A stretch of DNA of 64,000 bases from Mageeibacillus sp. Lineage in GTDB: Bacteria; Bacillota; Clostridia; Saccharofermentanales; Saccharofermentanaceae. The DNA is taken from positions 1 to 64,000 of the forward strand of contig JAKVLB010000008.1 of the NCBI GenBank assembly GCA_022484595.1. Direction: 5' to 3'. Positions 55,337 through 60,839 of this stretch are shown one piece after another. Numbering within the stretch: the stretch's first letter is position 1; each line of letters starts with the position of its first letter. The position numbers were made by a program, and so were the translations under genes. The notes under the pieces are model-generated. The model worked only from the letters and a program-made list of their open reading frames with translations. It searched no databases and had not been told where the DNA came from.

Positions 55337-57643
55337 TCATCTGTAAGAGCCGTATTTCTTGCGTTTCTCATGTTTCTCTTCATAGAGCAGACCATCAGCG
55401 ATATCAAGAATCTCATATATATCAATCTTAGGGCTGCACTTGAACTCATGTATTCCTGTACTCATTCCGATATGATACGGCTTATCCGCCTGCTTGTTAT
55501 AGAATTCGGTAACTTTATCAATGCGCATTTTAATCTTATGTATGTCACATTCATCTCCAATGACAGCGAGCACCACAAATTCATCACCTCCGAGCCGTCC
55601 GATAATATCGGCGTCACGGAATGATTTCTTGAGTATCCTCGCTATCGTTCTGATCGCGAAGTCTCCGTCATCGTGGCCGTACTTGTCATTCACCATCTTG
55701 AGGTTATCCATATCTGCATAACAGATAACCGCAGCCTTTCCGATATTGAGAGGATCTCCCAGAACCTTTTCAGCTTTCCCTAGAAAGCCTCTGCGATTGA
55801 GTATTCCTGTCAGCTCATCATGTGTAGCTATCTCGTCAAGTTTGGTGTTATCTCTGATAAATCTCTCAAGCGAATTCTGAAGCGACTGCTTGGACTTATT
55901 CTGTTCCTCTATCATTATCAGTGACTTGAGTGTTACGGACAGCTGGAAAGCTACTGTCGACACATTGCCGAGATTTCCGCTGTCAAGTTCATTTACCAGA
56001 AGCCCGTATAAATCGGCACCGACGAAGAGCGGGAAAACAACCATGGTCCTGCGCTTATCCTCAGGTATGTTCTCATTGGTAAACAGAAGATCGGTACGAA
56101 GGAGCTGTTGTTCTTCACTCAAGGCACGAATTCCGTGTTCATCACCGATTGCCTTCAAAAGCATTGAATTCGGGCATTTCCAGTTGCCCTTCCCGGAGTT
56201 GTGCACATTACCCTGGAACAGATATAGAAATGACCTGTGAAAGCCCACAGAATAGAGTCCCTCCAGAAGGTGTTCGTATGGTATGTCGTTCTCTGACGAC
56301 ATGAGGAAGATATCCCCGGTCTGCTGATTCACAAGTCTTGACAGATGTTCACTCTTGTTCTCATCATTGCGGGAAATTGATAATCCGGAGAAAGAAAGCA
56401 TTCTGTAATAATCCGAGAACATCTCGTTCAAAGCATCAGTATTGTCTTTGAGGATGATCGATCCCTCGTACTGCATAGTCTGAAGCACATTGAAGAATTT
56501 CTCCGGAGTTATATATACAAGCAGCTGTGTCTGCAGAATATGTGCAAAACTCTTATTCAGACTATCACACACTGCCGGGTCTGAGGGATTTCCGATAAAT
56601 GACAGGTAATCGCTGCAAAAATCATCAATTCGTTTCTTGATTTCAATCATCGGTTCATCATCTGCGAATATTCCGAACAGATATTTCTTTACTGCATCTG
56701 CGACACGGTTCCCGCCATGTTCAAGCTCATCAAAATGAAGTCTTCTTCTCATAGCCTTGACGTCAAGTCCATCACAGCCGCAGGAGCTTCTTTGTATCAG
56801 ATGTGTCTCCACAGACATATCTTCCAGAGCAAAACCGTTTATATAATTGTATGCATTCATTACAGCCTTATAAGTAAGATCTGCAGAACTTGCCTCAACA
56901 GTCGTAAGCGGCGGATTAAGAGATACCGAGAACCGGTCGTCATCGAAGCCTGTGACCATAATATCCTTGCCGGGAAGAAGTCCTCTGCTGTAAAGAACCC
57001 TGTATCCTCCGATAGCCATGGAATCATTCGCGAAAACAATCGCGTCAATATCCGGATTACGATCCAGCAGATCGTTTACTTCCACTGTACTGTTCTCTGA
57101 AAAATCTCCATAGACAATCCTCTTGTCATCAACAGGTATATTGTGCTCCGCAAGTACACTTCTGTAAACTTCGAGTCTTTCCCGTGCATCCCGGTTCGTT
57201 ACAGGACCGGATACAAACCCGATGGAATGACATGAATGCTTGTCAATAAGGTGACTGATCGCGCGTGAAAGCCCGGATTTGTTGTCAAAAGTTACGGACT
57301 GATATCCTTTAAAATTTGAGAACAGGCAGACAATCGGAACATCGGGCAATCCCTTGAGAAATTTGCGCTGCATCTGCTCATCCGCCCTTGAACATATAGT
57401 CCCCTGAAGGATATAGATAATGTCAACATTACGGACAGAAGGAAGAGAAAAAATCGAATTATACTGATACTCATACTCTTTGTCTGCGTATTTGCTGTCC
57501 GGTCTTCCTATATAGTGACCCGGAAAAATAAACAGATTTGCATTGAGAGCCCTGGCGGCAAGTTCAGCACCTTTGCAGGCTTCATTGGAAAAATACTTGT
57601 CAAGGTCATCTATCAGAAAACCGATATTAAGAGGACGTGCCAT
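55337..57643 (-). CDS. LacI-type periplasmic-binding-fold sensor - GAF-like region - GGDEF diguanylate cyclase
   Basis: LacI/PBP1 core (ANDSMAIGGYRVLYSRGLLPGKDIMVTGFDD) without HTH; RDADIIGRLGGDEF with RxxD I-site; ATG at 57643 after GAGGTG. Confidence 0.9.
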   Translation of the reverse strand: MARPLNIGFLIDDLDKYFSNEACKGAELAARALNANLFIFPGHYIGRPDSKYADKEYEYQYNSIFSLPSVRNVDIIYILQGTICSRADEQMQRKFLKGLPDVPIVCLFSNFKGYQSVTFDNKSGLSRAISHLIDKHSCHSIGFVSGPVTNRDARERLEVYRSVLAEHNIPVDDKRIVYGDFSENSTVEVNDLLDRNPDIDAIVFANDSMAIGGYRVLYSRGLLPGKDIMVTGFDDDRFSVSLNPPLTTVEASSADLTYKAVMNAYNYINGFALEDMSVETHLIQRSSCGCDGLDVKAMRRRLHFDELEHGGNRVADAVKKYLFGIFADDEPMIEIKKRIDDFCSDYLSFIGNPSDPAVCDSLNKSFAHILQTQLLVYITPEKFFNVLQTMQYEGSIILKDNTDALNEMFSDYYRMLSFSGLSISRNDENKSEHLSRLVNQQTGDIFLMSSENDIPYEHLLEGLYSVGFHRSFLYLFQGNVHNSGKGNWKCPNSMLLKAIGDEHGIRALSEEQQLLRTDLLFTNENIPEDKRRTMVVFPLFVGADLYGLLVNELDSGNLGNVSTVAFQLSVTLKSLIMIEEQNKSKQSLQNSLERFIRDNTKLDEIATHDELTGILNRRGFLGKAEKVLGDPLNIGKAAVICYADMDNLKMVNDKYGHDDGDFAIRTIARILKKSFRDADIIGRLGGDEFVVLAVIGDECDIHKIKMRIDKVTEFYNKQADKPYHIGMSTGIHEFKCSPKIDIYEILDIADGLLYEEKHEKRKKYGSYR

Positions 57644-57743
57644 ATAAATCACCTCATTTCATGCAGGCTATAATTTATAATAGCATAAACAGATGGCAAT
57701 ATCCCACGTTTGTGCGCAACATAATGCACTTTTGTTTACTGGT

Positions 57744-60700: not shown

Positions 60701-60839
60701 AATGATCTTCAGGCACACTGTCACCCGCACCGGATGCGAATGATCCGGCATTCCAATAGCTGCTGTTAATCTCATGACCGTCAAATTCTTCAGCCCAGAA
60801 CAACTTATAGCCTTCAGGCAGTACAACGTTATCCAACAT
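57744..60839 (-). CDS. GH16-like domain - CBM-like domain - LacI-type sensor - GGDEF diguanylate cyclase fusion
   Basis: GH16 EEFDG, RYGFVVARIKVPRGQGL, GEIDIMRITG; beta-sandwich region; ANDSMAIGVCDTLRKYGISVPDDVIVTGFDG; ARYGGDEFAFVL. Confidence 0.87.
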   Translation of the reverse strand: MLDNVVLPEGYKLFWAEEFDGHEINSSYWNAGSFASGAGDSVPEDHCGRSCLEVGESCLTISPSYFSRKKNSHACISANLDTIGKFDFRYGFVVARIKVPRGQGLVSSFKLLPAGDRLTCDNGEIDIMRITGCNTRKLEGSVQFGHPHTQKREILTGDVDYSDDFHVFACEWTPYDITIYCDGERICHACSWFSKTGSVFKPYPAPFDKPFNISIGLDMGRDITGCRFNASGDSDGKYDCMIVDYVRLYRKPEYDDFRAEHLNDNAQGTSDASANLLRSNDYFRVNDSYDCSEVLISDNDICIVPSEYQINRSGINMTQNGFSLEGSSLYEFSAEVKADCEWEVSASVRQDNDSFDDISGQITFNIEKEWQTHRFEFEVKSDTKVDAVAEIIMKPGNFGGVYFRNISIRKVKVYGNSRKLIAVCGVWEDADNYSVVLRAMQTKDVLSKYVIASFTFGIPSQDYGETELQLKFADIVGTLDLAAIVIFGEMIKTGQVIERLVSYGHKLRIPVITFQYPMEGCINADYEYGPGFEKIVRHVVEHHGCRKIDMFAGFKDNSFSEERIDIFRRVLEDNGIPFSQAHIFYGDFWDAKTSEVLSELLDNGYEVPEAIICANDSMAIGVCDTLRKYGISVPDDVIVTGFDGIWQGKYNSPVLTTCELNYDKIVEGLMVRINGWRPELSGKTDSFLIPYSLKINQSCSCRKKEDFEWSDIVDELADENQDSFRHMLEMGHFVTRMISADNIDEASVNLQHSLWMWKKQYYFICITEPNNCRHCIFQGNDGEYRYAQKFYGMANIVPDYFRLVEKDSGANVMLFRQIASGSADHGYLLNAYDHITLRSQQRFEELSLFVSAMVNGVLNNHKLVNTNRAVARLSEQDYLTGLYNRRGFFNAISEICSKEDNQGRILSLFSVDMDRLKRINDNYGHDNGDIAIQILSRAIMNIVENNGVAARYGGDEFAFVLTGDRKLASGVSDIRYEIEDFCSNDRAIAGKPFSVKASIGISERVIDNDLDIDKMISEADAAMYTDKMKRK

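Follow-up and report, generated by a model that had tools for sequence, protein, structure and literature searches.

Two adjacent LacI-type-sensor GGDEF proteins of Mageeibacillus sp., one with a conserved I-site motif and one with a degenerate, probably non-catalytic GH16 domain

The locus and its two proteins

The window, that is, the whole stretch of 64,000 nucleotides of a Mageeibacillus sp. contig analysed here, carries two adjacent, co-directional open reading frames on its minus strand, both judged to be real, whose products we call P0002 and P0001. Table 1 compiles their coordinates and those of their domains. The best start codons are the ATG at 60839 for P0002 and the ATG at 57643 for P0001, and a GAGGTG Shine-Dalgarno sequence of P0001 can be read directly from the sequence at 57650-57655. 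The gap agrees with the spacing of about 100 nt given in an earlier sequence-only reading of this DNA. A promoter scan returned the same number of promoters as in shuffled sequences, and no promoter is claimed. A recent tandem duplication was ruled out as the origin of the two genes because their LacI and GGDEF parts are only about 30% identical, and it is also disfavoured by the location of the nearest LacI region to that of P0002, which lies elsewhere in its own genome.

Table 1. Features of the P0002/P0001 locus, in window positions.
Feature	Position	Strand	Evidence or remark
P0002, GH16-CBM-LacI-GAF-like-GGDEF protein, 1031 aa	57744-60839	-	without RxxD I-site, signal peptide or TM
GH16 (laminarinase-like) domain of P0002	60054-60839	-	Pfam; PDB sequence and structure matches
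Degenerate GH16 active site G-E-I-D-I-M-R, catalytic acid/base Glu replaced by Arg	60453-60473	-	compared with EIDIME
CBM4/9-like beta-sandwich region of P0002	59598-60053	-	weak Pfam match; model beta-rich
LacI-type (Peripla_BP_3) sensor of P0002, no HTH, ends near SCSC motif	58725-59597	-	Pfam
GGDEF domain of P0002, ENNG at the I-site position	57747-58214	-	Pfam
Intergenic gap P0002/P0001, 100 nt	57644-57743		no minus-strand intrinsic terminator predicted
P0001, LacI-helical-GAF-like-GGDEF predicted diguanylate cyclase, 768 aa	55337-57643	-	RxxD I-site present
LacI-type sensor of P0001, no HTH, ends near SCGC motif	56751-57643	-	Pfam
GGDEF domain of P0001	55358-55840	-	Pfam
RDAD(5)GGDEF of P0001, primary I-site and active-site motif	55577-55618	-	motif spacing
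Conserved co-directional upstream gene, 207 aa, no Pfam match	60930-61553	-	neighbours P0001 with or without P0002

The Pfam matches of P0002 are GH16 (PF00722, 5.8e-15), Peripla_BP_3 (8.5e-17) and GGDEF (7.4e-31), together with a weak CBM_4_9 match (0.007) that falls below the cut-off, while P0001 matches Peripla_BP_3/BP_1 and GGDEF (3.3e-29). The LacI parts have the Peripla_BP_3 sequence and fold and match solved LacI-family proteins. No Pfam match to a LacI HTH was found in P0001 or P0002, and P0001, which begins immediately with its sensor domain, lacks the N-terminal HTH of a LacI-family transcription factor. Both proteins are soluble, and their earlier description as HTH-less LacI-type sensors ending in GGDEF holds.

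The AlphaFold models (mean pLDDT of 80 for P0002 and 84 for P0001) consist of separate GH16, beta-sandwich, LacI, alpha/beta (GAF-like), coiled-coil and GGDEF parts in P0002, and of LacI, helical, GAF-like, coiled-coil and GGDEF parts in P0001, where the GAF-like label is a reading of the secondary structure of the models that has no supporting Pfam match. Just after the LacI domain, both proteins have a Ser-Cys-x-Cys motif (approximately residues 698-701 in P0002 and 287-290 in P0001), whose cysteines are invariant in both families and which is a possible metal or redox site.

Between the upstream 207-aa gene and sepF there is a strong intrinsic terminator (61607-61627). The pair lies downstream of a conserved minus-strand block, at 61651-64000 of the window and on to position 67386 of contig C8, which comprises sepF, a YggS-like gene and further conserved genes and has the same gene order in many congeners.

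I-site motifs and the adjacency of the genes

The DxLT motif, the metal/GTP Asp/Asn residues and GGDEF are kept in both proteins and are invariant in the family alignments. Having intact GG[DE]EF, DxLT and metal/GTP residues, P0001 and P0002 both carry the sequence signature of a diguanylate cyclase and are predicted to be c-di-GMP-producing enzymes. The Asp equivalent to D344 of PleD (in GHxxGD), whose replacement presumably marks the Hypr GGDEF proteins that act as cGAMP synthases, is invariant in both families (D929 in P0002 and D661 in P0001), and the Hypr signature is absent from both.

At the I-site position, P0001 reads RDAD-IIGRL-GGDEF and P0002 reads ENNG-VAARY-GGDEF. The opposite I-site status proposed for the two proteins was confirmed and extends to their families, RxxD standing five residues before GG[DE]EF in 34/34 P0001-family proteins examined versus 0/52 P0002-family proteins. 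In the alignment with DgcR (6zxm), each residue of the P0001 RDAD falls on its counterpart in RKSD, an I-site of proven function in which R206A/D209A largely removes feedback inhibition (PMC8041772), so P0001 has the PleD/DgcR-type I-site motif and P0002 does not. Together, this alignment and the family counts show that the contrast is real and maintained, and it is its conservation that lies above chance. It is important to note that a missing RxxD does not exclude product inhibition, since XCC4471 is competitively inhibited, and that RxxD is no guarantee of inhibition, since Dcsbis, which has a GAF domain, blocks its own I-site (PMC4937426).

P0001 is the only RxxD enzyme among the 12 intact GG[DE]EF proteins of its own genome, as counted from searches and fetched stretches. 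DNA-pattern censuses, which may include chance matches (2 of 43 raw genus matches encode Ser), found RxxD in about 41 of the 357 R-x-GG[DE]EF sites (~11%) of 21 congeners and in 31 of the 39 sites of five genomes from sister families. As judged by motif, I-site absence is common in the genus, P0001 is a conserved exception, and P0002 is ordinary in lacking RxxD. A second cyclase type, xxxDTCFRTGGDEF, represented by L106 (contig C6 of the own genome) and its relatives, has RxxD in many congeners and KKSD in the own genome. At least five LacI-sensor c-di-GMP proteins occur in the own genome, counting L111, L112 and L119, the last of which (L119:1303-5127, contig C4) is a LacI-GGDEF-EAL protein of 1274 aa.

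A P0001 homologue directly follows P0002 on the same strand in 25/28 genomes of the clade of the window protein, which was taken from a P0002-family tree whose outgroup branches are long and unreliable; the pair is thus adjacent in relatives, as the sequence-only reading had asked. In one of the three exceptions, a gene for a leucine-rich/choline-binding-repeat protein lies in between, and in the other two no partner was found nearby. At least 10 congeners have P0001 with no P0002 next to it, seven of them at the same locus, beside the same upstream 207-aa gene. P0001 can therefore work alone, and its pairing with P0002 is common but not essential. Four genomes from another branch of the genus have the P0001 orthologue directly downstream of a GH5 cellulase gene, which hints at a beta-glucan-related signal.

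The GH16 domain of P0002

The N-terminal domain of P0002 has the beta-jellyroll sequence and fold of GH16 (Foldseek match to 4dfs, TMt 0.77), and its top PDB matches are laminarinases, by sequence and by structure. GH16 catalysis requires E-x-D-x-x-E. The window domain has EIDIMR instead, keeping the nucleophile Glu and the Asp, a degeneracy on which the sequence-only reading was silent. At least one catalytic acid has been lost in 44/49 fused GH16 domains versus 0/21 stand-alone relatives, one of which is in the own genome (Fisher p 1.7e-13, phylogeny left uncorrected). In the main fused clade, the nucleophile Glu has become Gln in 24 of 25 proteins. The loss is not universal, as five of the 49 fused copies, which are short-form homologues, retain the intact E-D-E triad. 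The window domain is the most divergent copy (branch 1.44).

The two classes also differ at their N-termini: the fused proteins begin directly at the domain, without a hydrophobic segment, and N-terminal hydropathy separates them fully from the stand-alone enzymes (fused ≤ 0.8, stand-alone ≥ 1.8), while a lipobox is present in 20/21 stand-alone versus 1/49 fused proteins. Positions 111, 120, 144 and 224 (P0002 numbering), which are invariantly Trp, Trp, His and Trp in the stand-alone enzymes, have changed in the main fused clade, whose members may therefore bind something other than beta-1,3-glucan. Many aromatic residues are conserved in the fused GH16 domains. In close pairs taken from the window protein's sister group, the window gene itself having no close relative, the GH16 part has a dN/dS of 0.04-0.09, a sign of strong purifying selection and about as low as the values for the LacI and GGDEF parts. 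These features are in keeping with a pseudoenzyme retained for a binding or structural role, and the GH16 domain of P0002 probably works as a sensor rather than as an enzyme.

The GH16-GGDEF fusion is present in 49 of the 85 genomes of the genus, with the CBM region in 39 and without it in 10, and one or two changes on the tree are inferred for its origin. When the top candidates of each of about 380 other Clostridia genomes were scored, no such fusion turned up; LacI-GGDEF proteins and separate GH16-CBM enzymes do occur there. A search of genome contigs for related loci returned only LacI-GGDEF-type relatives, and no description of GH16 or CBM fused to GGDEF was found in the literature titles and abstracts listed.

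Proposed explanation and known systems

We favour, with a probability of roughly 0.55, the explanation that P0001 and P0002 are two independent, often adjacent, soluble ligand-sensing cyclases, of which P0001 is self-limited and P0002 has a non-catalytic GH16 carbohydrate sensor. This explanation rests on sequence, namely domain order, motifs, conservation, loss of the catalytic triad, purifying selection and adjacency; the identity of the ligand, the direction of regulation, the feedback kinetics and the output are what we infer. In P0001, a cytosolic LacI-type sugar-binding domain would signal through the GAF-like domain and the coiled coil to a GGDEF domain that would limit itself through its PleD/DgcR-type RxxD I-site, the only such brake among the cyclases of the genome. 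P0002 would use the same LacI-GAF-like-GGDEF chassis without an I-site and with a GH16-CBM module added at its N-terminus; the module is a relative of secreted lipoprotein beta-glucanases, has no signal peptide and has lost the catalytic acids. This module would most likely bind imported beta-glucan-type (or other) oligosaccharides uncleaved, as a second carbohydrate input. It is a tentative proposal, to which we give slightly less than even odds, that within one genus a secreted beta-glucanase became a cytosolic, non-catalytic carbohydrate sensor directly controlling a diguanylate cyclase, the dead enzyme and the LacI domain providing two inputs to one c-di-GMP output.

Targets for the c-di-GMP made would include the two MshEN-bearing pilus-type ATPases of the own genome (L227 on contig C3 and L228 on contig C2), one of which has two complete RLGxxL motifs. 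These are candidate effectors, and pilus control through them is a plausible output as judged from their motifs. The genome also encodes seven EAL proteins. Neither PilZ nor a c-di-GMP-I riboswitch was found in it, and both were rejected as outputs; their absence weakens the output side of the explanation.

The sequence-only reading had proposed that the two cyclases set a sugar-dependent c-di-GMP level through a feedback-limited and an unlimited branch. Its starting observations are supported, namely two LacI-sensor cyclases with intact motifs and conserved opposite I-sites, adjacent in 25 of 28 clade members; the adjacency, the short gaps and the I-site contrast speak for such a functional pair responding to the same sugar. 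The special two-branch design is not supported, because most cyclases of the genome and genus have no RxxD and the "unlimited branch" would then take in almost all the other cyclases; the self-limited enzyme is an exception and not half of a designed pair. P0001 also occurs alone, and with only about 29% identity between the two LacI domains there is no indication that both respond to one sugar. We regard the functional pair as improbable. Somewhat further down the scale, and distinctly improbable, is that the RxxD of P0001 is not a working feedback site, being blocked by the GAF-like domain that precedes GGDEF in the model, as in Dcsbis with its GAF domain (PMC4937426), or serving another role such as c-di-GMP-dependent oligomerisation; against this, all 34 orthologues have the motif, which is missing from most cyclases of the genus.

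For the GH16-CBM module, it is unlikely, although it deserves serious consideration, that it serves as a scaffold for structure or oligomerisation, or survives as an evolutionary remnant, and that sensing falls to the LacI domain alone. Some LacI-GGDEF homologues do without GH16 (forms of 773 and 722 aa) and the subsite residues are altered in the main clade, but GH16 is kept in 49 genomes with many of its aromatic residues, and the low dN/dS argues against a remnant. It is very improbable that the fused domain has remained an enzyme and cleaves cytosolic oligosaccharides by an altered chemistry: the few copies with E-D-E, and the nucleophile Glu and Asp of the window copy, would allow it, but nearly all copies, including that of the window, lack at least one essential acid, and in the main clade the nucleophile itself is almost always Gln.

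If the favoured explanation of two independent ligand-sensing cyclases is correct, P0002 would exemplify pseudoenzyme signalling in bacteria, and the degenerate glucanase of such a cyclase points to a class of ligands that can be tested for LacI-type c-di-GMP sensors. The system could link plant-polysaccharide breakdown to attachment in what is presumably a fibre-fermenting anaerobe. The genus would also be a natural experiment on I-site loss, with one conserved, probably self-limited cyclase among many that have no brake.

Several known systems share parts of this arrangement. Peripla_BP (LacI-like) domains on c-di-GMP proteins are included in a sensory review, which suggests that they bind solutes, including sugars, and assigns them no signal (PMC8846402); the same LacI-type domain is there fused to GGDEF/EAL proteins, to which P0002 adds GH16-CBM and the pair a conserved opposite I-site status. 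P0001 shares with PleD and DgcR (PMC8041772) the RxxD five residues before GG[DE]EF, aligned with that of DgcR, but their input is a receiver domain, whereas that of P0001 is predicted to be LacI plus GAF-like. The GH16 laminarinases (8va4, 4dfs and 3atg) have the same fold and give the best sequence match to the GH16 domain of P0002, which, unlike them, has no signal peptide and has a broken catalytic motif. For the likely change from a glucanase to a cytosolic sensor on a cyclase, the closest precedents are the GH10 domain of the Clostridium thermocellum anti-sigma factor RsgI6 (PMC4711584) and the insect beta-glucan recognition proteins (GNBP; PMC6403176). In RsgI6, a GH10 domain of very low activity is reused as a polysaccharide-binding sensor, as we propose for P0002, but RsgI6 is a transmembrane protein that senses outside the cell and acts through a sigma factor, whereas P0002 is soluble and its predicted output is c-di-GMP. 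The insect proteins are GH16 homologues that, like the GH16 of P0002, have lost catalytic glutamates, and they act in recognition; they belong to animal immunity, whereas the GH16 of P0002, bacterial, cytosolic and fused to a cyclase, would be, if our reading is true, their bacterial counterpart.
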